Source: Heliocidaris erythrogramma (Eukaryota > Echinodermata > Echinoidea > Camarodonta > Echinometridae). Taken from it: a stretch of DNA of 64,000 nucleotides. Positions within the stretch are counted from its first letter, which is position 1, and every line of letters begins with the position of its first letter. Location of the stretch: NCBI GenBank assembly GCA_025617745.1, contig CM046873.1, forward strand, positions 24,101,547 to 24,165,546, written 5' to 3'. The notes beneath the pieces are model-generated. The model did no database searches, was not told where the DNA came from, and worked only from the letters and a program-made list of their open reading frames with translations. Below are positions 983 through 50,324 of this stretch, piece after piece. The position numbers and the translations under genes were made by a program.

Positions 983-1148
983 CCAAAGGCTCATTGAACA
1001 TGGGGAATCTCGGCATAAACATGATGTCCATCGCAAGTTGTGCATTCATCAATTTCAGCTTTACCAGTGGGTCATCCGATTTCCCTTTGAAATCCAACTG
1101 GAAGTAGAGAGTGTGCTTGATTTTTTGTAGGAAAGCTGAATCAACATC
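983..1148 (-). CDS. UPA domain exon (continuation)
   Basis: Acceptor TTTTTTTATAACAG and donor TTTGG|GTAATT bound a 166-nt interval, open in the frame required by the preceding exon. It encodes DVDSAFLQKIKHTLYFQLDF then KGKSDDPLVKLKLMNAQ and ends MFMPRFPMFNEPL. The alternating hydrophobic strands and position right after the UPA start suggest it continues that beta domain. It leaves one codon base for a following exon outside the window. Too short for the open-frame survey, so it rests on phase, splice sites and context. Confidence 0.6.
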
Positions 1149-1204
1149 CTGTTATAAAAAAATATTTGACATTGATAAACAAACGCATCTGTATTGGTGT
1201 ACAA

Positions 1205-1325
1205 ATATCTGGAGCTCGGCTCACGCGAGCCGCCATTTAGATTGCGTCCTTACCCGGGCTAATCCATCCAGTTATTAAAAGAATTCTTTTCACTGACGCG
1301 GTCCTAACGTCACCAAATGGCACCG
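1205..1325. repeat. Dispersed repeat with GGCTC..GAGCC hairpin
   Basis: GGCTCACGCGAGCCGCCATT, later GACGCGGTCCTAACGTCA. Related words (GGCTCGCACGAGCC, GCTGACGTTAGGACCGAG) occur at 63.91-63.96 kb in rearranged orientation, so these are fragments of one dispersed element. Confidence 0.5.
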
Positions 1326-1329
1326 ATCG

Positions 1330-1626
1330 TGATAATCGTAAACCTGTTCGTAAAGTTACACATGATCGTACGAGCAACTTGAATATGAAGTGCCAGATAG
1401 GATTCCCAAAGTTTTTCCCGATGTTTTACCAATTTAATTATGGCAAAAAAAAATATATACTTTGCATTAAAAATGTCTGTTATAATAAGAATGTTATTCT
1501 ACATCTGCACAGTTCAACTTTAGTTGATGCAGTTAAATATGACTGAGCATTCCATTTGGCTTGTCATATTTAAGTCAGTCGTAAAGTCATGCGTAACTTT
1601 ACGAACAGCTTTATGAAACACCCCCA
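1330..1626. mobile_element. Palindromic MITE (GTTCGTAAAGTTACGCATGA family)
   Basis: Left arm CTGTTCGTAAAGTTACACATG (1347 on) is matched in reverse by CATGCGTAACTTTACGAACAG (1590-1610), with further matching outward to CATAAAG/CTTTATG and inward to CTTGAATATGA/TCATATTTAAGTC. The right end reads CTTTATGAAACACCCCC. A degraded copy lies at about 24.06-24.31 kb. Both lack coding capacity. Confidence 0.7.
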
Positions 1627-1649
1627 AATCTTCAACATTTCTAATTGAG

Positions 1650-2240
1650 GTGCAGTTACTTACTACGATAAGGCCCGCTACACAAGAGGCGTTATTTCAA
1701 TCGCGCCATTCAAGGAAATTCAGGCTTGTGGATGCATAGAACAGGTCCAGAGACAATTTCTAGCCAATGACGTAACCCCTTGAAGCAGGGTGCGATGGCC
1801 TAGCGCAGGGTTCCGGATTTGTACGAAAATCGACTATATAGCGTATCAATCTACTCCAACAGATGAGTGCTTACAGAACATAATTATGTCATTGTCAACG
1901 TGGCCTATTGTTCACGGATTACTCTTGCACGAATTCTATGGAATTGAACGATTAGGTGGCGTAGCTGGCGGTAGTGGAATAACGCCTCGTGTGGATCGGG
2001 CTTATTAAACTCTGTCACCTCCTCAACGGCGTCGCTGTCATTTAGTTGGCACCTGACTTTCAGGCTTTCGTCTTTGACGTCCATCTCATCGTCATCATCT
2101 TTAGCGGGTTGATAGTCTGCGTCCTTACTGATGTCATGTATATCTCTCTGTAGCAGGGTGAAGTGGGGAAGTAATTATAAAGAATGTCTACAAATGATCG
2201 CAAAAAAAGAACAAAACTACAGATTAATGCGACTGCGTCT
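1650..2240. other. No gene seen
   Basis: Unique-looking sequence with one 72-codon open frame (1790-2008) that shows no family resemblance. Confidence 0.5.
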
Positions 2241-2244
2241 CTTA

Positions 2245-2830
2245 TATGCCTCTGCCTAAATTCAGTTGATGGCTCAAACTATTCTTGAATTATTGTGATA
2301 ACCAGAATAAAAGCTTACAATAACATGTTAATTGACATCTTTGACATTTGACCTTACACCTTATAGCCCCAAAGTGTGATAACTTTATCTCCTCTTAGTC
2401 ATGAATACACAATATTTGAGATATTGTGATAACAAAGCTAAAAAATAAAAAAAAGAAATCACATAATTATAATGACCTCTATGACCTGTCACTTTTGAGC
2501 TACGTGAACCAAAATCTAATCAGTTCGTCTCACTCTGGTGATGCATACTAGTTCCAAGTTTGGAGTTAATGACTCGACTTGTTCAAGAGAGTGTCAACAA
2601 GGCAAAAACCTGAAATTTCATGGTAAATGACCTCTATGACCTTTGACCTTTGACCTACATTTTCCAAGATCTAATCAGATCGTCTTCCTATGGTGATACA
2701 TACTAGTACCAGTTTGAAGTTAATACTTTTAAATGGTTCTTGAGTTATCGCGAGAACGGGAAAGCGGGACGGACGGACGGACGGACAACACGAAGACATA
2801 ATGCCTCCTTCGGTGGGCGGAGGCATAAAA
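2245..2830 (+). mobile_element. Dispersed repeat ending GACGGACGGACGGAC...GGCGGAGGCAT
   Basis: Contains repeated words TGACCTCTATGACC, TTTGACCTTTGACC, AATCTAATCAG, TCCAAGTTTGGAGTTAAT, TTCTTGAGTTATCGCGAG, then GACGGACGGACGGAC and ATGCCTCCTTCGGTGGGCGG. It is built of related sub-blocks (2470-2620 and 2620-2760). I know this kind of repeat as widespread in marine deuterostome genomes; its class is unclear. Confidence 0.6.
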
Positions 2831-3290
2831 AGGAGTACAGGTACATTCCCGCTTGTGGCGCTGACGACTTTTGCCCGAATATCAACTGTTCGTCTTCAAA
2901 ATACACTAGATAATACCTACAATTACATATTCGAGCAGCGACGTGCCGCCTAGATATGTAATTTTTTTATTTCAGGCACCACCCTGCCCGAATATCCTCA
3001 TATGCCAGCACCTTGCTACTCGAGTATGATTGGTAGTTTCCCGAATATCGGAACTTCAAGGGGGAGGGGCTGCAGCCCCCGTTCCCCGCAGTAGGCCTGT
3101 GGTGATAGTGATACCAACATTCTGAAAACGTCCAGCGGAAGTTTAGTTGGACTCTTTATAACAAGTGATCAATACAATGTAATCGCATGACCAGAACTCA
3201 TCTTTATTTTTAATCAGCATTTGCAATATATGCCCATCTGCTCAACGACGAAAAGAGGAAAGTTATGATTTATACATTAAATTTAAGGCC
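2831..3290. other. Intronic sequence, no gene seen
   Basis: Intron between the two UPA exons. It holds a small palindrome GGGGCTGCAGCCCC near 3066-3079 and no exon-like stretch. Confidence 0.5.
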
Positions 3291-3293
3291 TAC

Positions 3294-3538
3294 CCATGAT
3301 GTTCCATGAGGCTTGTTGACCATACGAAACTCCAAGACCATGTTCCTCGAAGGCGGCATTCTCCTCGGTATAAACGGCATGAAGGACAGTCGTTTGCCTC
3401 TCATGTAACACCAATCTATGATGAAGGCTAGGAATCCTCCTGAGAAGTGCTCCAAGCAAATCTCAGCGTGATGTGGAGTAACCCGACAGGTTCTTGATGT
3501 TTGTAAGATGCGTTCATGTTTGCCCTCTTCAAATCCCT
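3294..3538 (-). CDS. ZU5 C-terminal part with HFS motif, then start of UPA domain
   Basis: Acceptor CCTTTTTTATCCTAG precedes the exon; its first two bases complete the Glu codon begun by the ZU5 exon. The donor is TGG|GTAGGC, ending on a codon boundary. The protein continues the ZU5 fold: EGFEEGKHERILQTSR, then CRVTPHHAEICLEHFSGG, the closing strand of ZU5. After GFLAFIIDWCYMRGK it enters a UPA-like start (RLSFMPFIPRRMPPSRN, then MVLEFRMVNKP). The tripeptide HFS (3441-3449) sits at the ZU5 end, where PIDD and the FIIND of NLRP1/CARD8 are cut between Phe and Ser. Whether cleavage occurs here is unknown. Confidence 0.8.
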
Positions 3539-4241
3539 CTAGGATAAAAAAGGTTGTCCGACACATGCTCAGGATCCATTTACCTCACGGTAATTTCATA
3601 CCATGACTGACTTCAATCCTGGACAAAAAGCAATACCTAACAGTACTTTTACCTTAACCCTAAACCTAATCATATATCTTTCACGAAATAAAGCCGGGAG
3701 CATATGTCGGAGCACCGATAAACGAAAATAATTGATGAATATGTGCGTACCACTTTATCGGTCGGAGAACTAGGGGCGGAGGCGGGGGGTAAAGAAGAAG
3801 GAAAAGGACGAAACACTGGGGAACAGAACGTTAGGATTTTCTCCTCCTACCTTCCGCCCACCCCTTTAAAAATAAAACAAAAGCCGACAGGTACGAACAG
3901 AGCATTACCATATCGAGTGATTGATTTTCCCTTATTTCAGAAATGGGTAACCACTTGGCACCAAAAGGAATCATAAAACATTACTGAGATATGTTTTTAT
4001 AATGCCTTATTCATGACGCCTAGATAGCGACCCATTATGATCCTGGAGGTACAACAGATCTATGTGTGTTTGCTGGTAATTAGGTACACATATGATTAAT
4101 GAAACATACCACATACATTTTACAATAACTGAAGTTTATGTTTATGAGTCCTACGATCCAAACGGCTGGACTATATCAAAGACTATTTCCTGTAATATAG
4201 ACAGTTTAATATAGTTTTAATTTCTTCATCGCAGTGCTTAC

Positions 4242-4556
4242 CATGATTCCAGGAGTACAATACAACCTGAACCTTCTGCGGATCAATCAGGTCGGCACAG
4301 TGGGGTATCGTCAATCTCACTGGTTTCTCTGCTGCAAATTGTAGTCCAGACGGAAGGAAATGGAAGCTGTTAGTTACAATCATCTCGTCATCTCTCAGAA
4401 GGATATCACCGGGGATGTGTCTTCGGACCTGTACAGTAATCCTCTCACTGACACCCTCTTCTAGTGCTCCAGGAGGGATGGACAGAGTGACTCCCTGTGA
4501 CGGAATCTTCAATTCTCCTCCCCGTTCGTCAAATAAGCCCTCGGTATAATACTGAT
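4242..4556 (-). CDS. ZU5 domain exon (N-terminal part)
   Basis: Exon ending at the canonical donor CATG|GTAAGC (GT at 4241-4240). Two acceptors are possible: ATTACAG at 4556 (two bases complete a codon) or the next CAG, giving a start at 4551 in phase with the linker exon. The protein reads DERGGELKIPSQGVTLSIPP then GALEEGVSERITVQVRR, which is the signature start of a ZU5 domain (GG-L-IP-GV-L-IPPGAL). It continues through SFHFLPSGLQF and PVRLTIPHCADL to VQVVLYSWNH, where the exon stops in mid-domain. ZU5 is a beta-sandwich found in ZO-1, UNC5, ankyrins, PIDD and the FIIND of NLRP1/CARD8. Confidence 0.85.
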
Positions 4557-4574
4557 CTGTAATTATACAGTGTG

Positions 4575-5270
4575 AGTCAGAAAAAGTGTTATACTTTTTG
4601 AATTGAAAATTGTTCTAAAAATGTGGGACTAACAGAGTATTTTAGCACGTATGGATAGAAGTATATATTCCTTTATTGTTTGGTAACATTTGTTTCAATA
4701 TTGCTGTAACGATTGAGCTCACAACAGCCATTGTTTGAAAGATAGTCAAAACTCAAGTCGTATGATTACCTGCTGAAACAGAGACAACAACATTCACACA
4801 CACAATGAGCGTAAAATCTATCGATGTGTTTAATCAAGGCAAATAAACATGAGAACCAATAAATAAATGAATAAATAAATAAAGCCAGAAATCATAACTT
4901 TTTCATAGTCATTTTGGGCGTTTGGACATAGCTTTTAGTCTTCCACATGGCATGCATGGCGTCCGTTTCTCTCGATGCATTTCTAAGCTCGATGGAGCAT
5001 CGCTGCCATGGCCCTACGAAACGTCTGTCTGTCTTCTCGCAGACTGATTGCTTCTCTGACTATTCGGTGGTGCAAGTCATCCAGGTCTGCAGGTGAGCTG
5101 ATGTACACTTTGGACTTCAGGAACCCCAGACAAAGAAGTCCATGGGTGTTAAGCATGGAGATCTTGGGGGCCACTCCACAGGAGCTGTTTACACTCTTAG
5201 GTGGTAAAATAACATGTCGTTGTAAAAACAGTTGTAAAAATATGTGTCAAAATGTACACATATCTGTGTA
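4575..5270 (-). pseudogene. Degraded DDE transposase fragment (C-terminal end)
   Basis: Minus-strand frame 5174-4983 reads PKISMLNTHGLLCLGFLKSK then VYISSPADLDDLHHRI, which resembles the PRSPDLNPLDFFLWGYLKSK-VY...L..L..RI block near the end of mariner/IS630-type transposases. The DFF-Trp residues are eroded (GLLCLG). After an in-frame stop the matching frame goes on KCIERNGRHACH, the expected RCIERNGGH-like tail. Only the last third or so is present. It lies in the intron upstream of the ZU5 exon. Confidence 0.65.
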
Positions 5271-5299
5271 GAAGCTTGAAACAAGGGAACACAGCATGC

Positions 5300-6890
5300 G
5301 AGTTAGACGTTTACACCTGCACAGCGGTAAAAAGAAACCCGATTCTGGTCAAACTTCGTCCACATGTCAAAAAGGCTACCCCATTTGTGGTAATCATCAA
5401 CACACTTTACTCAAAAATTTCATTGATTCGAAGTGTGTGTAGGCGCGAAACGTGGCCGGGTACGATCACATGCAGTGCAGTGGTGAAGCTACACTATAGC
5501 ATCGACTCCCGGTGGGACAGTTTTGCAACGTAACCCTGCAGTTTTTTCTCAAAACGGAAGTCATATAGGAGGAAAATTACTTTAGCTACGCAAAGTATTT
5601 CTCTCATCTAGTATATTTCTCACATTATACTGGGCGTTTAAAAAAATATAACCCAAATTTGAATAATTCCTGTAAATGAACAATATATTTACTGAAAATG
5701 AAATTCATACCGTATGGAAGAATAGTTCATAATCTTTCCAATGGTAGTTTGTTTAGGTTTCCAGGTCATGCATCACTGAACACCATTGTCTTCAAAATTT
5801 TGTGCAAATATCTAGATGGTTCACTTTCTTGTAAAACACAATAGGCATGATGTTAAGGAGATGCCTTTTGTGAAATGGCCTGGGTGATCCAATTCTTATT
5901 GTGGATAATTGCCTTTTTCCAATTTGTGTTAATGAGATGTTATTCACCCATGATTCAGGATTTTTTTTGTATAAAACCCTTTTCAATGTTAAAAGGAATC
6001 ATTTTGCAAAGAAGACAGTTTCGGTGAAGTTTAACAAGGCTGCATATGCCAAAAACACGGTGCGGACCAAAAGTAGTGCAATATCACAAAGAATTGCAAA
6101 TCCAAGACAAAAACATAAAGAAGGAAAATAAAAAACTCATACGTGTGATTGAAGATTTTACTTTGCTGATTTTCAAAAATGTCCGCTTTTAGTGGAAAAT
6201 CGGCGGAAGATGCCTGCAGCACTAAAGACAAACGAATATAACTTGTCCCTATAGTGCTCTCTGAAAATCTCAATTCTTCTTGGTCAAAGTTTATGATTAA
6301 CAGCTCGTTCCATGCTTAATGAAGTTCATAAGACTCTTAGTTAAGGCGTAAACTTAATCATTATGAGATTTGCTTACTAACGGATGGCCATGAAGAGCAA
6401 CCAAGCTAGTTGACAATGTCATTCAACCCAAACCATGCCTAATGGCCTATGCATTTTATTCAGTTATTCAATTTCTGAATTTTGCATGATTTCCGTTTTG
6501 TTTCTAGTTTCATTTCATAAAAAAATAACTTCATGGTCATTCTTAAAAAGCGCTGTGATTTTGGAAGACACTTACTTCTTAACAGAGGGTACTCGAAGTG
6601 CTCTTCAGTCGTTGATATTCTGAAAATAAAATTTGTAATGATATTCCATGAAGGAAAACTTATGCAACTTTCATTTTTCCGTGAGATGATCTTGTGTGAC
6701 ACAGATATATAAAAATGAACAAAAACAATCACAAGATTTTGATAAACAGGGCCCTGCCTGATAAAGAGTCAAAAGTTAATGTAAGTGGAGAGTTGAGATT
6801 GAAATCACACTTGCAATTATTCAGCTCAGTTACAATTATGTATTAGACCGTGACCCATATTGGCCTAGACTGACTTGTAAAAGACTGCAA

Positions 6891-6931
<41 letters not shown>

Positions 6932-7400
6932 AATAAAAAGTGACAAGTTCAATCGATTAATTAAAACATAACCCGAAAGAGATTTTTTTTTTGGTCACGG
7001 AATAAGTGAATGTATATGTGTACGTCTGTTTGTAAATTGAATATGAAAGAGCTGGGTAAAACTTCCCAAATATTAGGTAAAAAGGAAACATGCATGTTTA
7101 TTGCATGAAATAGTATTACCCAAGTAACCGATTTCGGTTTCTTTTTACCCAATATTTTGTGTTAACTTTTTTTCTTCAACAAACATGCTTGTTCCCTTTT
7201 TTACCCGATATTGGTTGAAATATTACGAAAAAACTGATTTGAAAGTGTACAGATCATATTCCTTCACTTGCTAGTGGGTGACTGTATTTTGAATTTTTAT
7301 CCGACTCGATGTCGTAAATGTAGAAGAAGTAGAATTTCCAGAGGAAAACCTTTTATATACACATAGAAATTAGTTCGTAGTAAAACTTATCAGCGGTTGA
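5300..7400. other. Intronic sequence, no gene seen; A-tract at 6892-6926
   Basis: AT-rich intron of the Ank-ZU5 gene. A poly(A) run of about 35 near 6.9 kb may be a retroposed tail. Several 60-90 codon frames are unsupported by composition or family resemblance. Confidence 0.5.
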
Positions 7401-7428
7401 CTCATGTGCTGGAAGAGAGCTTCCTTAC

Positions 7429-7532
7429 CTTTCAGCACCTTCACTGTGATCCGATGGTTGCAATGAAAGGCGATTTAGAGATCGAGTGGGTGAAAGAGAT
7501 TTCTCCGTTGTTACCTCTCTCGTCTGAGTTAC
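7429..7532 (-). CDS. Candidate extra linker exon (low confidence)
   Basis: A 104-nt interval with acceptor-like GGACTTAG and a strong donor GAAAG|GTAAGG. One frame is open throughout, starting VTQTREVTTEKSLSPTRSLN and rich in Ser/Thr/Arg, plausible for a linker. The phase does not fit simply: using this donor it would leave two codon bases, whereas the ZU5 exon needs one or none. A weaker donor ten bases upstream (GAAG|GTGCTG) would fit the 4556 acceptor. It may be an alternative exon or chance. Confidence 0.25.
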
Positions 7533-7774
7533 CTAAGTCCAAGTATCAGATAAAAAGGAGATGAGATTTTTATATTACATGGTGGTGGGGGGGGGGGGGG
7601 GTGGGAAGTATTTGAAATTTTAAAGTAAAGACTATCTAAAAACGTTTTCACCCGTCTTTACATTTTGCAATTCACAGCCAACGTAATTTGTATGTCATTT
7701 AATTAAGCATCTCACTGAACGTTTGGCGATAGCGGCGAATAGCGATTAGTCAAATATATACAATTGAACGTTGG

Positions 7775-7915
7775 ATAGAGATGTCGTGGTCTAGTGGACA
7801 CGACACCGGACTATGGTTCGCGGTTCGAATCCCGCGACGGCGCTAATGTCCTTTTGGCAAGACATTCATCTACATTTGCCACTCTCCACCCAGTGCCCTC
7901 CCCGCCCCAAGAAGA
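7775..7915 (+). mobile_element. tRNA-derived SINE head
   Basis: GTCGTGGTCTAGTGGACACG carries an A-box-like TGGTCTAGTGG, and GCGGTTCGAATCCCGCG a B box, about 40 bases apart, followed by the family body TCCTTTTGGCAAGACATTC and CATTTGCCACTCTCCAC. The tRNA-like part does not close a good acceptor stem, so it is a SINE and not a tRNA gene. Same family as 150-535. Confidence 0.7.
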
Positions 7916-8204
7916 TTCCGTTTTCAACGAGAAGTATTAATAGATTTTCTGCTCGCTCTCTACGCTCGCTCGCCTAGTCAAAAATTAACCTTCCTTAAAT
8001 ATGATTATGATTAAAATCGAACATTAAAAAGGGGCTCGCTCGCGAATATAAAATGAACACTTATTTGATGTGGAACAAGTGATGGTAGGTGGTGCTTTAT
8101 TTAGAAATCGGCAAGAATTTTAAAAAATTCGAATTAGATTTGTTAAATGAAAATAGACTCACGGTTGACAATGGTTGAGAACAAATTATTTTGTTACTTG
8201 CTTC

Positions 8205-8365
8205 TGCACTTGCCCCCCCCCCCCCCCCCCAACAAAAAAAAAATATGTCGTCGTTCACAAACAAAGGTCATCGGAAATCGGTCGCACACAGACTCAGGCT
8301 TAGTGGTCTCGACACCCCCCCCCCCCCCCCCCCTCCAACTCAGAAAGGTGTGTGTGTGTGTGTGT
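8205..8365. repeat. C homopolymers and (GT)n
   Basis: C-runs at about 8212-8230 and 8317-8333 and a TG run at 8348-8366. The open frame across them (8147-8509) is a composition artefact. Confidence 0.85.
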
Positions 8366-8594
8366 AATTGGGTTTTTACAGACGTATATCAATCAGATAT
8401 GATTATTTACGTCTGGGACCAACCTTTAACATCACCATCCGAAAGACGTGACTCAGTCTCGAACCTGGGTCCGCTGAATCAGTTTATAACTGTTTATAAC
8501 ATTGGATAGCGACCCCTGGGTCGATCCAATCTTTCATGATGACATTGTACTTTTAATCCCACTAGGATGACTTTTTCCTCTTCATAAGAATCTG

Positions 8595-8760
8595 ATGTCA
8601 CCGGCGGATCCAGGATTTTTCAAGGGGGGGGGGGGGGGGGGAAGTCTCTACGTGAAAGAGTGATAGGCGAAAAAAAGAAAGGCCTCTGCCACTAGATGTC
8701 TATCAGGGATAATCTAAAATTCTCCGCCAAAAGCCCCCCCCCCCCCTCTGGATCCACCAC
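8595..8760. mobile_element. Short element with inverted GGATCCA ends around a G-run and a C-run
   Basis: CGGCGGATCCAGGATTTTTC followed by a G-run (8625-8640), and about 110 bases later a C-run followed by CTCTGGATCCACCACTGG. The ends are inverted relative to each other. A similar GGATCCGCC/C-run association is seen at 50.2-50.4 kb. Confidence 0.5.
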
Positions 8761-8875
8761 TGGATGTCACAACACGCTATATTATGCTCGCTTGGAAATT
8801 AAATGAATATACAGGCCATCGCAGACCCTCACACTCAACTGCACACTGTGATGTAAAGAGAGAATCATATCAGCT

Positions 8876-10152
8876 AACCCTAATGAATACCATCGATATA
8901 TGTATGTACTATGATCTTTGCATGACTTTCAAACATAAATTTCAAAAGTACTTACTCTGACTTTTTACGGTTCTTATCTTAGATGACAATCCACAAGGTT
9001 ACAGGAACTATGTATGGGATATTTTATTTTATACCGGTCACGTGTTTTTTAAATCCTGTAGTCTCATTACTACATGGATGTTATCCACATTCCACATTAG
9101 GCTTAGGCCTTAGATAATATACTCAACTGGTTATTTTTGAAATATTCATATCCGTTATTATTGTTGATTTTACTTGTTACGTTAGTTTTTTTTATTACAT
9201 GCCTATATTACTTGTATTTTCTTATAAAAATTGTAACCAATTTATGATATGCATTAGTGTTTATTCCTGTTACATCAGGACCATGTATCATGCAAAACAG
9301 TTTTATACTGATCATGCTTTTATCCTGTGTGAATAAGTTCAAATAAATAAATAAATGAATACATAAATATATAGATAAACTTTTGAATGAATCAAGTAGC
9401 AGGTGTTGTCATCATGTTCAAGGCGAGAATTTGGGTATCACCCATTCTATTGAGGACACAAATCTTCTGGATCTAGATTTGAATCAAGTAAACAGAAATT
9501 CCGGTAGAAAGACAACACCACGTTTTGTATTAGCTACCACTTTTTAGTAACAGCTAAAGTGGTCACATTCACAGCCAACGAGCATATTCGAATCGCTGAC
9601 AGTGATTGTTAATCTGGTATATTGGTTAGTAACATTTCTTTCTTTAGTTGAAAGAGGTCATCTTCATTAACATTCTGTATCCATTGCAACATATTTTTTT
9701 ATAATCAAATTTAGCTCTATTTCAAACTAAAGTTTTGAATATAATCAAACAGGCGGCAAAAGCTATTAGATGTTACCATTATTTCATGTTGAAAACAACC
9801 ATAGTATTTTTTAAAAATACAACACAATAAATGTATTTGTTACCATGGTAACTGCCTACACGTGTACCATGGTAACTGCCTACACGTGTAGTGGTCACCT
9901 CCATCACCCCTTTACTTAAACAAATTATGATCAGTGCGTGTCCTGTAAGAGAGAAGATAATCATGTACACTATAAATGTATTAATATTTACTTTTTAAAC
10001 TCTTATTTGGGTTTTAATCAAGTGAAAAACTTTTGATACATTATTCTAAAATGTTACAATGTGATTTTGTACTTCCTTAATCACGAACACATGACATTTT
10101 CTGAAATTCTACTGTTCTTGATCCGTTGCCATGGTAATAGCCCTTGTGGTCA
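8876..10152 (+). repeat. Segmental direct repeat, copy 1
   Basis: Runs from CCTAATGAATACCATCGAT to GATCCGTTGCCATGGTAA. Nearly the same sequence recurs at 10345-11645. It contains AAATAAATAAATAAATGAAT near 9345, like a LINE/SINE 3' tail, and a doubled GTTACCATGGTAACTGCC at 9839-9890. No intact open frame. Confidence 0.85.
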
Positions 10153-10344
10153 CGCCCACCTCTTAATTTTCAAGAGAAGTTCTTTTTCTGCTGGTGTCTA
10201 CTTTACCCCATCCCCCTATCACAAGACGCTTTTCCGCCCTGGTCTGTGACCAATATTGATTAGTTGCCAACTCGTGATTTTAAGTCGCTGCACTTTACAT
10301 CAACACTAAATTTGTCATTATACCATACTTAGTTGCCAGCTAAA

Positions 10345-11645
10345 GCCCTAATGAATACCATCGATATATGTATGTATTATGATCTTTTTATGACTTTCAA
10401 ACATAAATTTCAAAAGTACTCTGACTTTTTACGGTTCTTATCTGAGATGACAATCCACAAGGTTACAGGAACTACGTATGGGATTTGTTTATTTATTTTT
10501 GTATACCTGTCATGTTTTTTTAAAAATCATGTAGTCTCATTACTACATGGATGTTATCCACATTCCACATTATTTTAGCCTTACATAATATACTCAACTG
10601 GTTATTTTTGAAATATTCATACCCGTTATTATTGTTGATTTTACTTGTTACGTTAGTTTTTTTATTATATGCCTATATTACTTGTATTTTCTGAAATATT
10701 CATAGCCGTTATTATTGTTGATTTTACTTGTTACGTTAGTTTTTTTATTATATGCCTATATTACTTGTATTTTCTGATAAAAATTGTCACCAATTTATGA
10801 TATACCTTAGTGTTTATTCTTGTTACATCAGGACCATGTATCATTCAAAACAGTTTTATACTGATCATGCGTTTATCCTGTGTGAATAAGTTCAAATAAA
10901 TAAATGAATACATAAATATATAAATAAACTTTTGAATGACTCAAGTAGCAGGTGTTGTCATCATGTTCAAGGCGAGAATTTGGGTATCACCCATTCTATT
11001 GCGGACAAAAATCTTCTGGATCTAGATTTGAATCAAGTAAACAGAGATTCTGGTAGAAAGACAACACCACCTTTTGTATTAGCTACCACTTTTTAGTAAC
11101 AGCTATAGTGGTCACATTCACAGCCAACGAGCATATTCTAATCGCTGACAGTGATTGTTAATCTGGTTGCTATATACATTTCTTTCTTGAGTTGAAAGAG
11201 GTCATCTTCATTAACATTCTGTATCCATATCAACATATTTTTTTATAAATCAAATATAGCTCTATTTCAAACTAAAATTATGAATATAATCAAACAGGCG
11301 GCAAAAAACTATTATATGTTACCATTATTTCATGTTGAAAACAACCATAGTATTTTGTTTAAAATACAACACAATAAATATATTTGTTACCATTGTTACC
11401 ACGTGTAGTGGTCACCTCCATCACCCCTTTACTTAAACAAATTATGATAAGTGCGTGTCCTGTAAGAGGGAAGATAACCATGTACACTACAAATGTATTA
11501 ATATTTACTTTTTTAACTCTTATTTACATTTACATTATTATAAAATGTTACAATGTGTTTTTGTACTTTCTTAATCACGAATACATGACATTTTCTGAAA
11601 TTCTACTGTTCTTGATCCGTTGCCATGGTAAAAGCCCTTGTGGTC
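10345..11645 (+). repeat. Segmental direct repeat, copy 2
   Basis: Second copy of the 8876-10152 unit, separated by about 190 bp. It differs by indels, including an internal tandem duplication of about 83 bp (the block from TGAAATATTCATA through TTACTTGTATTTTC at 10607-10690 is repeated to about 10773), and loses the doubled CCATGG segment of copy 1. Confidence 0.85.
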
Positions 11646-11649
11646 ATTT

Positions 11650-12320
11650 GAGATTATTTCCAAGGGGGTGGGGAAATTTCAGTTTTTGGCCCATAGACTA
11701 TACTGATAATAAATGGGATAATTGCCTTATGTACATGTACACACTAGATGTATATTCAAATAGTGTTTTCATTCAAAATGTGCATCCAGTAAAAATACAC
11801 AAAAATAACATAAAATGAGTTATCTATCACCTTATCGGATAATTTCTTTTCTGTGTGTGACATGACAATATATATGATATGTTTAATCAAGAAAAAGCGT
11901 TTAAATGGACAAATTTACGTTGGGTAAACAACTTTGAAATATATTACTGGTAGTTTTCACAACCTATTATTTTGAGTAAATCACAGTTTTATGTTTCATT
12001 ACGCCATATGTGTGTAATATCCAAATTTCAGTTGTATATTAATCAGGTTTATAACTTCAAACTCAAAATAAATATGACATCACTTGAAAAGTCTTAATCA
12101 GGTATTACATACTAGGTCAAAAAATTAAAAATGGTGATTTTTGACATTCTTTCAAATTTTGAGCAAAAAAAGGGCATTTTTAGGCAAAAATGCACGTGGC
12201 ATCCGCCGCACCTTATTCCTAAGTATTTTTGCAAGAGTTTAGCATGGATGCCGAGCATTACCCCAAAATGCCGTCCAAAGTAAAAAAAATCTTCTTGGCT
12301 GGTCTACTATTTGGTAAACA
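11650..12320. other. Intronic sequence, no gene seen
   Basis: AT-rich; no element boundaries or exon recognised. Confidence 0.5.
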
Positions 12321-12325
12321 TGACT

Positions 12326-12505
12326 TTTTGGTAAAATTGACTGTAAATATGCGCCACAGTCATCTAATATTATTCAACTGGTCAGCAAAGGTTCTTTTTG
12401 AAAGGTTAAGAATAGTTGACGATCACAAAGAACTTTTGCAGACAAGTTGCAGACAAGAATAGTTGATGATTGTGGCGCATATATTTACAAACCATTTTGC
12501 TAAAA
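12326..12505. mobile_element. Palindromic MITE
   Basis: Left arm TTTTGGTAAAATTGACTGTA-AATATGCGCCACAGTCATC is matched in reverse by GATGATTGTGGCGCATATAT-TTACAAACCATTTTGCTAAAA at 12466-12505. The centre has a short tandem TTGCAGACAAG x2. Confidence 0.7.
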
Positions 12506-12559
12506 AATATAAGTATAATAATGCTGTAGTGATGTATAAGTCTATGACAAATCAAGTTC

Positions 12560-13412
12560 TGCTTTATCCAAGTTAGAAATTTTCACACATAAAACATATT
12601 TGTGATACGCAACGAAGTAGGTTTTGTCCGAAAACTGAATCCGGCAAACGCACATATATATACAGGTGCCCAAATATGGAACTCACTTCCAGAGGAGATT
12701 CAGAGCGCCCCTCATATTGGTAATTTTAAATCTAAGCTGGTATATGAGAATATTGCTTCTCCTTAATTTGTTAAACAATAAAGATTTGCTAGATAAAGAG
12801 CAATCAACAAATAAACTTCTTATGATGCTTTAACGTACAATTAGTCGAACTACAGAATGAATTCTTTTCGGAAATATAAATACTATGATATCTTATGGTT
12901 GTGGACTGGAATGATAACATAAATCTAATTTTGAGACACCGAAAACTTACTTTGTTTGAGATTTTATTCCTCTAACGTTTTACTCTGTTTTAAATTTGTT
13001 TTTGTAATAGTTCTTCTTTGCCTAATTTTATCGAGACATAATACGTGATAGATTTCCATATTTTTAACATAACCAAATATTTTAGTCATTTTACATTACT
13101 ATATCGCATTTTATTTTTCATATTTCATATTATATATCTTTAAAATGTGTTTATATATATTAATTTTTACACCTTATTGTACTGAACCCTTTCACTATAT
13201 ATAGTGAATATTGTAATATTTTTCTAATCTTTATCTTAATTTCTATGTTTTATATATATATATATTATTTTCTATTTTCTATGAATGTAATTGTTGTTTT
13301 TTTACTTGTATTTACATTTTTTACATTGTATTTTATTGATACATGGCCCCATTGTAAATCAGCTAAGTAGCTGAATGGGGCTTTTACTGTTTTTGAATAA
13401 ATAAATCAAATT
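12560..13412 (+). pseudogene. LINE 3' end: ORF2 C-terminus and 3' UTR
   Basis: Plus-strand frame ending at 12765 reads RNEVGFVRKLNPANAHIYTG then AQIWNSLPEEIQSAPHIGNF and FKSKL, the typical C-terminus of jockey/CR1-group LINE reverse transcriptases (G..WNSLP..I....L..FK..L). A long AT-rich 3' UTR follows, with an imperfect hairpin CCCCATTGTAAATC..GCTGAATGGGGC (13348-13382) and an end TGAATAAATAAATC. 5'-truncated. It sits in the intron between linker and ZU5. Confidence 0.75.
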
Positions 13413-13414
13413 AA

Positions 13415-13700
13415 CGAACGTTTGGTGGACATGGCGTACAACTGCAAAATATTTCCAGAACTTTAAAGAAAATAGGCCTAATTCTGGCAAATGTCTGAAA
13501 ATGCCTAGTCGCCGCTTTCGCCAACCCTCGGAGTGAGAAACTTACTTAAGGGCAGTGCTTTCCTCTCAGTTTCGAACACGCCATGCCATTTTTTAAAAAT
13601 CGTCTAATCTTAAACACTTACAGATCAGGATGAGAGAGAATTTCGGAGACCACCTAACACGGTATTATATGTTTGGCTTGAATGTGTATCATCGTAAATC
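13415..13700. other. Intronic sequence, nothing seen
   Basis: Short stretch between the LINE end and the linker exon. Confidence 0.5.
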
Positions 13701-13704
13701 ATAC

Positions 13705-13901
13705 CTCAGAGGGCGGGGTAAGGCTCGAAATGGTACTGGAGAATGCACTGCTCCCCGAAGAATACACACTCTCTGTTGATCCTGAAGAACATGAAGAAGA
13801 CTCAGGGAGAGTGGTAAGGATCAAATAGCTATTGGAGCATGCACGGCTCCGAGAAGAATACCCACTATCTGCTGATCTTGAAGAAGATTCGTCTTGCCGA
13901 C
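13705..13901 (-). CDS. Ser-rich linker exon between ankyrin repeats and ZU5
   Basis: A 197-nt exon preceded by a pyrimidine tract and AG (13903-13902) and followed by donor GTATGA (13704 down). Its first two bases complete the Gly codon left by the ankyrin exon, giving KKG-RQDESSSRSADSGYSS. About 65 residues, nearly half Ser, ending SSLTPPSE. It reads as a disordered phospho-linker. It contains DSGYSS, matching the DSGxxS consensus of beta-TrCP degrons. The exon is internally duplicated at DNA level: two related halves carry GAAGAATAC-type segments about 110 bp apart, encoding the two ESVYSSGSS/DSGYSSRS-like stretches. The exon ends on a codon boundary. Confidence 0.75.
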
Positions 13902-14330
13902 CTGACAATAGTAAGAAAGTATTAAGTTTCGTTCACATATAACGCGGCAGACCTCTTCAAAATATCGCCAGGGCAAAATGAAAATCTTATTATCATTCTA
14001 CGTGATTGGGAAGTAGGAGTAGAAATAAGAGAGGAGCTGCGAACAGCAAAGATCCCCTCACGTGATACAGAAATATGAAGTGCACTGCCACTACGCTAGA
14101 AACAAAGCATAATTTGCTAAATATGAATACATGTACCTTTCTTACCATCCGTTTATTGCACACATACACTTTGTTTTCTTGGTGTAAATTTTCGGTTGTT
14201 ATAAAGGGATAAAAAAAACCCACGAGCACATTTTCGACCTTCATAGGCTGTGCACATTTTCTAAAAGAAAACAATAAGAAAATACGTGTATATACATCGA
14301 GATGATCATTGAACGATGAGTAGTGATTAC

Positions 14331-15120
14331 CTTTCTTAATCTGTACTGGTATACTACCGAGATACTGAACTACATCATGATGACCATTGCTCAATGCAGA
14401 GTGAAGAGGTGTCCAACTATCTTTATCACCCTTATTAATCTCCGCTCCATTACTAACGAGATACTGAACTACATCAGTATGACCACTGTGTGATGCAGAG
14501 TGAAGAGGTGTCCAACTATCTTTATCACCCTTATTAATCTCTGCTCCATTACTAACGAGATACCGAACTACATCAGTATGACCACTGTGTGATGCAGAGT
14601 GAAGAGGTGTCCAACCATTGTTACCACCCTTATTAATCTCTGCTCCATTAATAAGGAGATACCGAACTACATCAAGATGACCTTTGTATGATGCATGGTG
14701 AAGAGGTGTCCAACCATTGTTACTACCCTTCTTAATATCTGCTCTATTAAAAACGAGATACTGAACTACATGAAGATGACCACTTCCTGATGCAAAGTGA
14801 AGAGGTGTCAAACCACTGTCACTACCATTTTTAATTTCGGCTCCATTACTAACGAGATACTGAACTACATGAAGATGACCTTTGTATGATGCATGATAAA
14901 GAGGTGTCCAACCATTGTTACCACCCTTCTCAATCTGTGCTCCATTACTAACGAGATACTGAACTACGTTAAGATGACCCTCGTTTGATGCAAGGTGAAG
15001 AGGTGTCAAACCACCCTTACTACCTTTCTTAATGTCTGCTCTATTACTAACGAGGTACTGAACTACATCAAGATGACCACTGTGTGATGCAGAGTGAAGA
15101 GGTGTCCAACTATCTTTATA
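14331..15120 (-). CDS. Ankyrin-repeat exon, array copy B last part (8 repeats) and splice donor
   Basis: After the one-base deletion near 15120 the array resumes in another frame with about eight repeats, the first starting DSWTPLHSASHSG. The last repeat is divergent (SALSNGHHDVVQYLGSIPVQIKKG), as expected for a C-terminal cap. The exon leaves at AAG AAA G|GTAATC, donor bases 14330-14329, with one base of a Gly codon. The open frame continues to 13993 but that stretch has no ankyrin character and is taken as intron. The seven repeats before the cap are the same series that ends copy A at 16310-17070, unit for unit, which shows that A and B share both ends and differ in the middle. Confidence 0.8.
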
Positions 15121-16310
15121 ACCTTATTAATGTCTGCTCCATTACTAACGAGATACTGAACTATATCAAGATGACCACTGTGTGATGCAGAGTGAAGAGG
15201 TGTCAAACCATCTTCATCACCCTTCTCAATCTGTGCTCCATTACTAACGAGATACTGAACTACATCAAGATGACCCTCGTTTGATGCAAGGTGAAGAGGT
15301 GTCAAACCACCCTTACTACCTTTCTTAATATCTGCTCCATTACTAACGAGGTACTGAACTACATCAAGATGACCACTGCGTGATGCATGGTGAAGAGGTG
15401 TCCAACCATTGTTACTACCCTTCTTAATATCTGCTCCATTACTAACGAGGTACTGAACTACATCAAGATGACCATTCCGTGATGCAAAGTGAAGAGGTGT
15501 CAAACCATCTTTATCATCCTTCTCAATCACTGCCCCATTACTAACGAGATACTGAACTATATCAAGATGAGCACTGTGTGATGCAGAGTGAAGAGGTGTT
15601 CGACTATCTTTATCATCTTTATCAATCTGTGCTCCTTTACTAACGAGATACTGAACTATATCAAGATGACCACTGTGTGATGCAGAACGAAGAGATGTCA
15701 AACCATCTTCATCACCCTTATTAATCTGTGCTCCATTACTAACGAGATACTGAACTACGTCAAGATGACCCTCGTTTGATGCAAGGTGAAGAGGTGTCAA
15801 ACCATCTTCATCACCCTTATTAATCTGTGCTCCTTTACTAACGAGATACTGAACTATATCAAGATGACCACTGTGTGATGCAGAGTGAAGAGATGTCAAA
15901 CCATCTTCATCACCCTTATCAATCTGTGCTCCATTACTAACGAGATACTGAACTACATCAAGATGACCCTCGTTTGATGCAAGGTGAAGAGGTGTCAAAC
16001 CACCCTTACTACCTTTCTTAATATCTGCTCCATTACTAACGAGGTACTGAACTATATCAAGATGACCACTGCGTGATGCATGGTGAAGAGGTGTCCGACC
16101 ATCTTCATCACCCTTATCAATCTGTGCTCCATTACTAACGAGATACATAACAACATTAAGATGGCCATTGTCTGATGCTTCGTGGAGAGGTGTCCTACCA
16201 GTGTTATCAACCTTATCGAGCTGTGCTCCTTCAGAAATAACACACCTTACAGTGTCTAGACATCCCTTTTGTGAAGCAATATGTAGGACCGTTCTTCCGT
16301 CGTTATCTGA
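15117..16310 (-). CDS. Ankyrin-repeat exon, array copy B first part (12 repeats)
   Basis: Starts with the same residues that follow the N-terminal cap in copy A (SDNDGRTVLHIASQKG) and repeats its first two distinctive units (GCLDTVRCVISEGAQLDKV and the GHLNVVMYLV unit), so it is a second copy of the array beginning rather than a continuation. Twelve repeats follow before a frame change near 15120, where a one-base deletion in the usual codons for NKGDKDSW turns the frame to VIKIVGHLF. The frame is one base off that of copy A, so the two cannot be translated together as written. It could be a tandem duplication inside a real exon, or a second haplotype inserted by the assembler. Confidence 0.75.
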
Positions 16311-19300
16311 AGAGGTGTCCAACTATCTTTATCACCCTTATTAATCTCTGCTCCATTACTAACGAGATACTGAACTACATCAGTATGACCACTGTGTGAT
16401 GCAGAGTGAAGAGGTGTCCAACTATCTTTATCACCCTTATTAATCTCTGCTCCATTACTAACGAGATACCGAACTACATCAGTATGACCACTGTGTGATG
16501 CAGAGTGAAGAGGTGTCCAACCATTGTTACCACCCTTATTAATCTCTGCTCCATTAATAAGGAGATACCGAACTACATCAAGATGACCTTTGTATGATGC
16601 ATGGTGAAGAGGTGTCCAACCATTGTTACTACCCTTCTTAATATCTGCTCTATTAAAAACGAGATACTGAACTACATGAAGATGACCACTTCCTGATGCA
16701 AAGTGAAGAGGTGTCAAACCACTGTCACTACCATTTTTAATTTCGGCTCCATTACTAACGAGATACTGAACTACATGAAGATGACCTTTGTATGATGCAT
16801 GATGAAGAGGTGTCCAACCATTGTTACCACCCTTCTCAATCTGTGCTCCATTACTAACGAGATACTGAACTACGTTAAGATGACCCTCGTTTGATGCAAG
16901 GTGAAGAGATGTCAAACCACCCTTACTACCTTTCTTAATGTCTGCTCTATTACTAACGAGGTACTGAACTACATCAAGATGACCACTGTGTGATGCAGAG
17001 TGAAGAGGTGTCCAACTATCTTTATCACCCTTATTAATCTCTGCTCCATTACTAACGAGATACTGAACTACATCAATATGACCACTGTGTGATGCAGAGT
17101 GAAGAGGTGTCCGACTATCTTTATCACCCTTATCAATCTGTGCTCCATTACTAACATTTTTAATTTCGGCTCCATTACTAACGAGATACTGAACTACATG
17201 AAGATGACCTTTGTATGATGCATGATGAAGAGGTGTCCAACCATTGTTACCACCCTTCTCAATCTGTGCTCCATTACTAACGAGATACTGAACTACGTTA
17301 AGATGACCCTCGTTTGATGCAAGGTGAAGAGATGTCAAACCACCCTTACTACCTTTCTTAATGTCTGCTCTATTACTAACGAGGTACTGAACTACATCAA
17401 GATGACCACTGTGTGATGCAGAGTGAAGAGGTGTCCAACTATCTTTATCACCCTTATTAATCTCTGCTCCATTACTAACGAGATACTGAACTACATCAAG
17501 ATGACCACTGTGTGATGCAGGGTGAAGAGGTGTCCGACTATCTTTATCACCCTTATCAATCTGTGCTCCATTACTAACGAGATACTGAACTATATCAAGA
17601 TGACCACTGTGTGATGCAGAGTGAAGAGGTGTCCGACTATCTTTATCACCCTTATCAATCTGTGCTCCATTACTAACGAGATACTGAACTACATCAAGAT
17701 GACCCTCGTTTGATGCAAGGTGAAGAGGTGTCAAACCACCCTTACTACCTTTCTTAATATCTGCTGCATTACTAACGAGGTACTGAACTACATCAAGATG
17801 ACCACTGCGTGATGCATGGTGAAGAGGTGTCCAACCATTGTTACTACCCTTCTTAATATCTGCTCCATTACTAACGAGGTACTGAACTATATCAAGATGA
17901 CCATTGCGTGATGCAAAGTGAAGAGGTGTCAAACCATCTTTATCATCCTTCTCAATCACTGCCCCATTACTAACGAGATACTGAACTATATCAAGATGAG
18001 CACTGTGTGATGCAGAGTGAAGAGGTGTTCGACTATCTTTATCATCTTTATCAATCTGTGCTCCTTTACTAACGAGATACTGAACTATATCAATATGACC
18101 ACTGTGTGATGCAGGGTGAAGAGGTGTCCGACTATCTTCATCACCCTTATTAATCTCTGCTCCATTACTAACGAGGTACTGAACTACATCAATATGACCA
18201 CTGTGTGATGCAGAGTGAAGAGGTGTCCGACTATCTTTATCACCCTTATCAATCTGTGCTCCATTACTAACGAGGTACTGAACTACATCAAGATGACCAC
18301 TGCGTGATGCAGAGTGAAGAGGTGTCCAACCATTGTTACTACCCTTCTTAATATCTGCTCCATTACTAACGAGATACTGAACTACATGAAGATGACCATT
18401 GCGTGATGCAAAGTGAAGAGGTGTCAAACCATCTTTATCATCCTTCTCAATCACTGCCCCATTACTAACGAGATACTGAACTACGTCAAGATGACCCTCG
18501 TTTGATGCAAGGTGAAGAGGTGTCAAACCAACCTTACTACCTTTCTTAATATCTGCTCCATTACTAACGAGGTACTGAACTACATCAAGATGACCACTGC
18601 GTGATGCATGGTGAAGAGGTGTCCAACCATTGTTACTACCTTTCTTAATATCTGCTCCATTACTAACGAGGTACTGAACTACATCAAGATGACCACTGTG
18701 TGATGCAGGGTGAAGAGGTGTCCGACTATCTTTATCACCCTTATCAATCTGTGCTCCATTACTAACGAGATACTGAACTACATCAATATGACCACTGTGT
18801 GATGCAGGGTGAAGAGGTGTCCGACTATCTTCATCACCCTTATTAATCTCTGCTCCATTACTAACGAGGTACTGAACTACATCAATATGACCACTGTGTG
18901 ATGCAGAGTGAAGAGGTGTCCGACTATCTTTATCACCCTTATCAATCTGTGCTCCATTACTAACGAGGTACTGAACTACATCAAGATGACCACTGCGTGA
19001 TGCAGAGTGAAGAGGTGTCAAACCATCTTTATCATCCTTCTCAATCACTGCCCCATTACTAACGAGATACTGAACTACGTTAAGATGACCACTGTGTGAT
19101 GCAGGGTGAAGAGATGTCAAACCAACCTTACTACCTTTCTTAATCTCTGCTCTATTACTAACGAGATACTGAACTACATCAAGATGACCACTGTGTGATG
19201 CAGGGTGAAGAGATGTCAAACCATCTTCATCACCCTTATCAATCTGTGCTCCTTTACTAACGAGGTACTGAACTACATCAAGATGACCACTGTGTGATGC

Positions 19301-20053
19301 AGGGTGAAGAGATGTCAAACCATCTTCATCACCCTTATCAATCTGTGCTCCATTACTAACGAGATACTGAACTACATCAAGATGACCCTCGTTTGATGCA
19401 AGGTGAAGAGGTGTCAAACCACCCTTACTACCTTTCTTAATATCTGCTCCATTACTAACGAGGTACTGAACTACATCAAGATGACCACTGTGTGATGCAG
19501 AGTGAAGAGGTGTCCAACTATCTTTATCACCCTTATTAATCTCTGCTCCATTACTAACGAGATACTGAACTACATCAAGATGACCATTGTTTGATGCAGG
19601 GTGAAGAGGTGTCCAACCATTTTTATCACCCTTATCAATCTGTGCTCCATTACTAACGAGGTACTGAACTATATCAAGATGACCGTTCCGTGATGCAAAG
19701 TGAAGAGGTGTCCGACCATATTTATTACCCTTATTAATCTGTGCTCCATTACTAACGAGATACATAACAACATTAAGATGGCCATTGTCTGATGCTTCGT
19801 GGAGAGGTGTCCTACCAGTGTTATCAACCTTATCGAGCTGTGCTCCTTCAGAAATAACACACCTTACAGTGTCTAGACATCCCTTTTGTGAAGCAATATG
19901 TAGGACCGTTCTTCCGTCGTTATCTGAAGTATTTACAAGAACCGCTCTTGTATCACCTGTCTCCCTTTGTAAAATAGATCTTACTTTCACGAAATCACCT
20001 TGCTTCGCGGCGCTAAAAATGTCCGTAGCTGCTGTTGTCTGTGTTGTTTCCAT
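16256..20053 (-). CDS. Ankyrin-repeat exon, N-terminal array copy A (36 repeats, then frame break)
   Basis: Open frame of 1265 codons starting at ATG 20053 (METTQTTAATDIFSAAKQGD...). A non-repetitive cap of about 40 residues precedes 36 complete ankyrin repeats of 33 residues and a truncated 37th. The repeat consensus has TPLHxAS, a GHLDVVQYLV helix pair and a SNGAxIxKG turn; core positions are nearly invariant, while the residues before TPLH (DKDS, SNNG, SKGG, DEDG) and after AS (HSG, RSG, NEG, YKG) vary in a small set of combinations. Ankyrin arrays form a protein-binding solenoid, so the role is presumably ligand binding in the cytoplasm. One repeat is shortened in frame near 17150. At about 16310 the frame runs into sequence matching the start of the array and ends 20 codons later. 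No signal peptide is seen. Confidence 0.88.
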   Translation of the reverse strand: METTQTTAATDIFSAAKQGDFVKVRSILQRETGDTRAVLVNTSDNDGRTVLHIASQKGCLDTVRCVISEGAQLDKVDNTGRTPLHEASDNGHLNVVMYLVSNGAQINKGNKYGRTPLHFASRNGHLDIVQYLVSNGAQIDKGDKNGWTPLHPASNNGHLDVVQYLVSNGAEINKGDKDSWTPLHSASHSGHLDVVQYLVSNGADIKKGSKGGLTPLHLASNEGHLDVVQYLVSNGAQIDKGDEDGLTSLHPASHSGHLDVVQYLVSKGAQIDKGDEDGLTSLHPASHSGHLDVVQYLVSNRAEIKKGSKVGLTSLHPASHSGHLNVVQYLVSNGAVIEKDDKDGLTPLHSASRSGHLDVVQYLVSNGAQIDKGDKDSRTPLHSASHSGHIDVVQYLVSNGAEINKGDEDSRTPLHPASHSGHIDVVQYLVSNGAQIDKGDKDSRTPLHPASHSGHLDVVQYLVSNGADIKKGSNNGWTPLHHASRSGHLDVVQYLVSNGADIKKGSKVGLTPLHLASNEGHLDVVQYLVSNGAVIEKDDKDGLTPLHFASRNGHLHVVQYLVSNGADIKKGSNNGWTPLHSASRSGHLDVVQYLVSNGAQIDKGDKDSRTPLHSASHSGHIDVVQYLVSNGAEINKGDEDSRTPLHPASHSGHIDIVQYLVSKGAQIDKDDKDSRTPLHSASHSAHLDIVQYLVSNGAVIEKDDKDGLTPLHFASRNGHLDIVQYLVSNGADIKKGSNNGWTPLHHASRSGHLDVVQYLVSNAADIKKGSKGGLTPLHLASNEGHLDVVQYLVSNGAQIDKGDKDSRTPLHSASHSGHLDIVQYLVSNGAQIDKGDKDSRTPLHPASHSGHLDVVQYLVSNGAEINKGDKDSWTPLHSASHSGHLDVVQYLVSNRADIKKGSKGGLTSLHLASNEGHLNVVQYLVSNGAQIEKGGNNGWTPLHHASYKGHLHVVQYLVSNGAEIKNVSNGAQIDKGDKDSRTPLHSASHSGHIDVVQYLVSNGAEINKGDKDSWTPLHSASHSGHLDVVQYLVSNRADIKKGSKGGLTSLHLASNEGHLNVVQYLVSNGAQIEKGGNNGWTPLHHASYKGHLHVVQYLVSNGAEIKNGSDSGLTPLHFASGSGHLHVVQYLVFNRADIKKGSNNGWTPLHHASYKGHLDVVRYLLINGAEINKGGNNGWTPLHSASHSGHTDVVRYLVSNGAEINKGDKDSWTPLHSASHSGHTDVVQYLVSNGAEINKGDKDSWTPLQITTEERSYILLHKRDV

Positions 20054-48931: not shown

Positions 48932-48988
<57 letters not shown>
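48932..48988. repeat. G homopolymer, 57 nt
   Basis: Uninterrupted run of 57 G after ATGGGCGTCGCTAGAGTGA. A second G-run follows at 49016-49030. Confidence 0.95.

Positions 48989-50323: not shown

Positions 50324-50324
<1 letters not shown>

Follow-up and report, generated by a model that had tools for sequence, protein, structure and literature searches.

Self-cutting ZU5 proteins such as PIDD, NLRP1 and CARD8 act in vertebrate cell death and inflammasomes. A candidate for a similar protein is described here from the sea urchin Heliocidaris erythrogramma. It is a minus-strand gene of ankyrin repeats and one ZU5 domain, at 983-20053 of a 64,000-nucleotide stretch of contig CM046873.1 (the window; positions 24,101,547 to 24,165,546 of the contig, assembly GCA_025617745.1). 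There is about an even chance, in our judgement, that it encodes an intracellular repeat sensor of the PIDD, NLRP1 and CARD8 kind. Such a protein would consist of an ankyrin solenoid, a Ser linker, a ZU5 domain of the self-cutting type, a divergent UPA-like region and an effector encoded outside the window.

Related Proteins

Several families combine ZU5 with other domains. The cytoplasmic part of UNC5 has the order ZU5-UPA-Death. Ankyrins R, B and G carry two ZU5 domains. The solenoid of ankyrins has 24 repeats (PMC4358367), and echinoderms have a single ankyrin gene with a long exon (PMC5135030). PIDD has the order LRR - ZU5 - ZU5 - UPA - Death, and PIDD1 is described with LRR, two ZU5 domains and Peptidase-S68 (PMC9573974). 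NLRP1 and CARD8, which end in FIIND-CARD, cleave themselves after ZU5; the halves are held together non-covalently, and the C-terminal half is freed when the N-terminal half is destroyed (PMC7483925). The CARD8 cut depends on the Ser that follows it, and in PIDD each ZU5 is directly followed by a cut at HF/S (PMC3210808). Fusions of FIIND and of UPA-ZU5 are reported in animal TRADD-N proteins (PMC8195603), and sponges show a lineage-specific expansion of ZU5 (PMC3482391). A fusion of sensor and ZU5 in an animal thus varies a known theme. Caiap, a zebrafish inflammasome adaptor, consists of a CARD and 16 ankyrin repeats (PMC5662874).

The locus shares features with each of these. Like PIDD, it has repeats followed by a ZU5 with His-Phe-Ser at the C-terminal end, but the repeats are ankyrin rather than LRR, there is one ZU5, Peptidase_S68 is unmatched and no Death domain was seen in the window. 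With NLRP1 and CARD8 it shares the single ZU5, an F/S site in the same register and, for NLRP1, a long N-terminal part. It differs in reading HFS rather than SFS, in leaving FIIND unmatched and in showing no NACHT or CARD in the window. UNC5 is its nearest solved sequence relative, yet UNC5B has Leu-Gly where Phe-Ser stands here, and no receptor part was seen. Ankyrins R, B and G and the echinoderm ankyrin gene also place an ankyrin solenoid ahead of ZU5. In contrast to the 24 repeats and two ZU5 domains of cytoskeletal ankyrins, the locus has 36, 12 and 8 units in three frames and one ZU5, which matches ankyrin ZU5 only at E 0.099-0.6. Caiap likewise couples an ankyrin array to a death-fold pathway, but it has CARD first and ankyrin last, and the available part of its description (PMC5662874) mentions no ZU5. 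The positions used for binding in libraries of designed ankyrin repeat proteins (DARPins) rank among those that vary most between the units of this locus, which, unlike DARPins, is a natural gene with variation limited to a few unit types.

No protein joining ankyrin repeats to an autoproteolytic ZU5 in this way was found in a limited literature search, which makes this a weak negative. The available parts of PMC10855541, PMC2575513, PMC12314368, PMC11508797, PMC8683736 and PMC8229355 contain none. Viral contigs scanned with the N-terminal ankyrin part and with the ZU5 gave 2 and 4 pattern matches, with 0 confirmed.

The Exon Chain and the ZU5 Domain

The proposed chain consists of the following parts, numbered from the array exon (exon 1) onward.

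14331-15111, minus strand: ankyrin units 50-57, frame 1, with a phase-1 donor at the end (unit mapping, splice score, identity of units 50-56 with units 30-36)
13705-13901, minus strand: exon 2, a Ser-rich linker with 26 Ser in 66 residues and one DSGxxS-like stretch (phase, splice sites)
4242-4614, minus strand: exon 3, the ZU5 domain, with a Pfam match at about 4542-4258 (Pfam, phase, splice sites)
3294-3538, minus strand: exon 4, the end of ZU5 and the beginning of a UPA-like region (UNC5B alignment, splice sites)
3441-3449, minus strand: His-Phe-Ser codons in exon 4, with Phe aligned to the CARD8 autocleavage Phe (UNC5B alignment, residue mapping)
2019-2147, minus strand: candidate exon 5, acidic, UPA-like by position only (phase, splice sites)
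983-1148, minus strand: candidate exon 6, UPA-like by position only, ending in phase 1 (phase, splice sites, the donor weak)

Splice sites were scored with a splice-site matrix and ranked among the 1332 GT and 1270 AG sites. Five of the six donors are outscored by at most 34 GT sites (34 for the array-exon donor at 14331, 22 for the exon 2 donor, which is a good one), and the sixth, that of exon 6, by 146. Four of the seven acceptors are outscored by at most 32 AG sites; the remaining three compete as starts of exon 3, with 101 higher for 4614, 367 for 4556 and 753 for 4593.

The earlier note on this DNA had described the exons as joined by matching splice phases. This holds for exons 1 to 2 (14331, the end of the array exon, is in phase 1, as is the start of exon 2; the end of exon 2 is in phase 0), 3 to 4, 4 to 5 and 5 to 6. 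Exons 2 and 3 agree in phase only if exon 3 starts at 4614, or at the very weak 4593. A direct join to 4556 was rejected as out of phase and with a weaker acceptor than 4614. A search for an intermediate exon between exons 2 and 3, run under length and score limits, passed two candidates, 6753-6576 and 8647-8602; they were set aside, their content being unrecognised and an extra exon unneeded with the 4614 start. The two end points of the earlier note stand, 20053 being the start codon and 983 the end of a candidate exon. Exons 5 and 6 are candidates, called from phase and splice sites only. With exon 6 ending in phase 1, further exons are to be expected outside the window.

The ORF (open reading frame) at 4614-4186 matches Pfam ZU5 with E 3.6e-16. 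The nearest solved relatives of this domain are UNC5B (3g5b, E 2.9e-7) and ZO-1 (3.2e-6 and 5.5e-6). Matches to ankyrins are weak, at 0.39-0.6 in one search and 0.099-0.2 in another. The domain is thus best classed by sequence as UNC5-type, unlike the ZU5 of cytoskeletal ankyrins. It is the one ZU5 found in the window: a tblastn search of the whole window finds only the domain itself, although a divergent copy could escape. The alignment to UNC5B spans the joint of exons 3 and 4, with low confidence right at the joint, and just reaches the UPA side.

Profile matches, phases and splice-site scores together support a chain of Ank, Ser linker and ZU5, as the earlier note had proposed. The UPA that it placed at the end of this chain has no profile match. 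A UPA call by profile was rejected on the Pfam and Protein Data Bank (PDB) searches: the sole Pfam match of the candidate UPA region at E<=10 is an unrelated phage family (E 0.3), and the PDB search returned two dehydrogenase chains only (E 0.91). The profile searches that the note had suggested bore out Ank and ZU5 and failed to return UPA; Death was not among the matches of the selected ORFs.

The long intron between exons 2 and 3 contains a tandem duplication (8871-11646), with 10337-10692 matching 8871-9222 at 90.6% and a second pair, 10685-11646 and 9132-10152, at 89.3%. A minus-strand ORF without Pfam match lies at 4986-5246; by eye we take it to resemble the end of a DDE transposase.

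The His-Phe-Ser Site

Exon 4 reads Leu-Glu-His-Phe-Ser-Gly, and its Phe aligns with chain index 137 of 3g5b (UNC5B). With an offset of 540, indices 84, 123, 126, 130 and 137 become H624, C663, E666, C670 and L677. All five residues are named in PMC3210808 and match the letters of the chain at these indices, which places the Phe at UNC5B Leu677. In the same paper Leu677 of UNC5b corresponds to CARD8 Phe296, the residue before the cut. At its C-terminal end, the ZU5 of the locus therefore carries [HS]F/S in the register of CARD8 Phe296, with middling local alignment confidence.

The register is fairly stable. When the alignment was repeated under 120 settings, Phe fell on Leu677 in 98. Shuffling exon 4 placed HFS at the exact site in 83 of 200000 trials. 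Two helper residues of CARD8, His252 and Glu285, were compared; His270 and Glu279 could not be placed. His252, needed for CARD8 processing (PMC3210808), has its counterpart in the His of "IPHC", which is retained (UNC5b His624). Exon 4 thus appears to carry a putative signature of the self-cleavage type. The site, absent from the earlier note, is a better clue to mechanism than that note's argument for a recognition role.

Proposed Mechanism

Most likely, by analogy, the protein follows the release logic of NLRP1 and CARD8, and its sensing half would be the ankyrin array. The chain would cut itself after the Phe of His-Phe-Ser. The half made of ankyrin, linker and ZU5 would stay bound to the half made of UPA and effector and keep it inactive. 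The effector half would then be freed once the ankyrin half is bound, modified or degraded. Exon 2 contains the stretch DSGYSS, which we take to resemble a DSGxxS phosphodegron; a match to this motif occurs in 1.8% of shuffles. It is speculation that such a stretch would suit control by degradation.

If this picture is true, with a fast-changing ankyrin array coupled to the same trigger, it would illustrate how a conserved switch based on self-cleavage can be fitted with an adaptable sensor. Variation in repeat number between individuals would then be testable as variation in sensing.

The Ankyrin Array

The array is made up of these parts, followed by units 50-57 as given above.

16256-20053, minus strand: ORF with start codon, comprising a short N-terminal segment, units 1-36 and an out-of-frame tail to the stop (ORF, Pfam, unit mapping)
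16325-19915, minus strand: ankyrin units 1-36, the first array version, frame 0, with a 126-nt step at units 28/29 (unit mapping, Pfam Ank)
16308-16312, minus strand: out-of-register junction; the closing unit of the first array has 5 nt in common with the sequence immediately ahead of unit 1 in the second
15112-16298, minus strand: ankyrin units 38-49, the start of the second array version, frame 2 (unit mapping, identity of units 38-39 with units 1-2)
15112-15128, minus strand: tail of a hybrid unit with a net 1-nt loss and frame break (98-nt step, sequence)

In all, 57 ankyrin-type units lie on the minus strand of 20053-14331, spanning 19915 to 14418. They show the 33-residue TPLH...GH...GA pattern of ankyrin repeat proteins, and Pfam Ank families match the first ORF with E down to 0. 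The unit spacing is 99 nt, with exceptions of 126 nt (units 28-29), 26 nt (units 37-38, at the junction) and 98 nt (units 49-50).

The units do not form a single reading frame. Units 1-36 are in frame 0, units 38-49 in frame 2 and units 50-57 in frame 1, and a continuous frame of 57 units was rejected on this ground. In unit 37, the sequence switches after "TPL" to the stretch preceding unit 1, with 5 nt in common (16312-16308). This out-of-register junction leads to the stop of the ORF at 16256. The second break is a net loss of 1 nt near 15120, within the hybrid unit. The frame of units 38-49 is without a start codon ahead, and of all the units just the final 8 (50-57) share the frame of exon 2 and ZU5. 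The figures given in the earlier note, at least 20 and possibly about 57 repeats ahead of ZU5, therefore do not hold in that form. The exceptional in-frame repeat number that it described dissolves into two versions of the array, assembled in tandem and out of frame.

Evidence for two versions comes from comparing the units. Of the 198 nt of units 38-39, 194 agree with units 1-2; between units 50-56 and units 30-36, 690 of 693 nt agree. The best matches in the first version are 22/14, 6, 7, 6 and 19/7 for units 40-44, and 20, 21, 22/14, 6 (23 next) and 21/8 for units 45-49. Among units 40-49, only 45-47 keep plain order, following 20-22. The window thus looks to hold one array in two versions, the longer with 36 units plus a truncated one and the shorter with 20 units. 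Since two such versions are present, the length of the array changes easily. Since they are joined out of frame and one unit is a base short, the assembled copy cannot yield the full fusion by end-to-end joining of exons.

G/C-rich minisatellites with units of 14-16, 28 and 51 nt lie at 20828-21305, about 0.8-1.25 kb upstream of the ankyrin start codon.

Alternative Explanations

Several results weigh against a self-cutting sensor. The assembled allele is broken twice, and exons 2 and 3 are 9 kb apart, with phase as their only link. UPA has no Pfam match at E<=1 in the joined exons 3-6 or at E<=10 in the candidate UPA region, and FIIND and Peptidase_S68 have none at E<=1 in exons 3-6 or at E<=10 in exons 3-4. 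No death-fold effector was found in the selected ORFs scanned with Pfam, the exon chain leaving the window after 983. At the cleavage site, the HMMER posterior falls from 8 to 7 to 5 over Glu-His-Phe, with Ser on a gap, and a second alignment ends three residues short of His-Phe-Ser. Phe falls on UNC5B Phe682 in 18 of the 120 realignments and on nothing in 4, and [HS]FS occurs anywhere in 4.7% of exon 4 shuffles. The place of CARD8 Glu285 (UNC5b Glu666) is taken by Thr. Nor is there a C-terminal CxH motif, as described for ZU5 autopeptidases (PMC3482391); the sequence reads Cys-Leu-Glu-His just before Phe-Ser. The low alignment posterior and the stable register pull in opposite directions, and for this reason the self-cutting sensor is held at an even chance, as the best explanation.

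The protein could instead be an uncleaved adaptor, a scaffold like ankyrin or UNC5 in which ZU5-UPA only keeps the C-terminal domain closed, as in those proteins, and His-Phe-Ser is incidental. The best solved relative, UNC5B (E 2.9e-7), has Leu-Gly at the site, the missing UPA, FIIND and Peptidase_S68 profiles fit this view, and confidence in the alignment is middling at the site. Against it, HFS is present, with its Phe in the known cleavage register in 98 of 120 realignments. We regard such an adaptor as rather unlikely. Less probable again are two transcription units, an ankyrin-repeat gene with the Ser-rich exon as its last and, at a distance of 9 kb, an independent ZU5 gene. The 9-kb gap and the moderate in-phase acceptor of exon 3 (101 of 1270 AG sites higher) would suit them; however, both parts lie on the same strand, their phases agree with the 4614 start, and exon 2 ends at a good donor, which argues that it is not a last exon.

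The doubled array itself can be explained by a real tandem duplication or by two alleles joined in assembly. The most probable of the four alternatives, falling only a little short of an even chance, builds on joined alleles: two alleles of about 37 and 20 units were placed end to end, the 1-nt loss is a sequence error, and each allele is in reality intact. Assembly of repeat arrays often produces breaks of both kinds, and the 3' ends of the two versions are identical at 690 of 693 nt though their unit numbers differ. An overlap of 5 nt is short for an assembler, however, and neither side of the junction has unique flank. The other course would be a decaying copy, in which a real out-of-frame tandem duplication through 5 nt of microhomology and a 1-nt loss produced a pseudogene, giving at most a free 36-repeat protein. 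The two frame breaks, the single novel junction with 5 nt in common and the stop at 16256, far upstream of the splice junctions, speak for decay. Yet the first frame is open over 3.8 kb, the joined frames of exons 3-6 are open, and the near-identity of the array ends means that any duplication was recent. Decay is doubtful, at roughly the level of the uncleaved adaptor.

Variation Among the Units

Sameness. Entropies were counted over 49 of 56 units, 40 of them distinct; units 1, 2, 28, 38, 39, 49 and 57 were dropped, and the cut unit 37 was never included. Eight framework codons show no nucleotide difference among the 40 distinct core units. Six of these are fourfold degenerate (ACA, CTT, GCA, TCA, GTT and CTC). 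Since the sameness extends to synonymous sites, it points to recent amplification, conversion or homogenisation and not only to constraint. The unit sequence is reminiscent of sea urchin ankyrin-rich genes.

Variable positions. Variation is highest at unit positions 7, 28, 10, 26, 33, 2, 32 and 11. The earlier note had confined it to the turn before TPLH and the residues after AS; these do vary, though positions 7, 26 and 28 of the unit show just as much variation. Six of the eight (7, 10, 33, 2, 32 and 11) are binding positions of designed ankyrin proteins. A first surface test with the DARPin positions 2, 3, 5, 13, 14 and 33 gave P=0.004 in a rank test. In a permutation test with DARPin positions 2, 3, 5, 10, 13 and 14, a set chosen after the entropies were known, the excess of binding positions among variable ones has P about 2e-5. 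The exchange of 33 for 10 follows PMC3308923, in which position 10 of DARPins points to the binding surface, unlike 26 and 33. Contacts of ankyrin repeats are located on finger loops and inner helices (PMC8229355).

Counted at the six surface positions, 22 distinct combinations occur in 52 of the 55 neighbouring unit pairs examined, which fits shuffling of a limited set of unit types. The pairwise ratio of nonsynonymous to synonymous differences (pN/pS) is 1.49 for all codons together, 1.74 at the six positions of the first surface test and 1.28 elsewhere. Splitting the positions by their own entropy gives 2.16 against 0.47, a circular split. Positive selection is not claimed, since the units are not independent.

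As a rule, ankyrin proteins differ at the surface positions of their repeats. The variation seen here agrees with a binding role, yet is equally typical of ankyrin repeats in general. The recognition role put forward in the earlier note is thus possible but weakly argued, the core being invariant at synonymous sites too.

Variable length. A further idea concerns splicing within the array. An in-phase G/GT donor-like site lies at the position 30 Gly codon in 46 of 56 units, the real donor of unit 57 included. These sites are homologous to the real end of the ankyrin exon and score 2.2 to 5.9 by a splice-site matrix, against 6.4 for the real donor. Splicing from G/GT in units 1-36 to exon 2 would enter the Ser linker and ZU5 in frame and bypass both breaks. 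The locus might then be a natural DARPin-like ankyrin sensor of variable length on a self-cutting ZU5, with splicing from many units giving many sensor lengths. This is a long shot, the least probable of the readings given here. If true, one locus would supply sensors of many lengths on one trigger.

Elsewhere in the Window

A reverse transcriptase fragment lies at 30126-30865 (Pfam RVT_1, 3.6e-24), and near it, at 31926-32557, is an inverted pair of 287 nt with 99.3% identity (32272-32557 and 32212-31926). A fragment of a Tc3-like transposase helix-turn-helix is found at 61994-62383 (Pfam HTH_Tnp_Tc3_2, 5.7e-10). Long mononucleotide runs of G or C occur at 48932-48988 (57 nt), 50321-50365 (45 nt, imperfect), 50740-50769 (30 nt) and 58277-58307 (31 nt).

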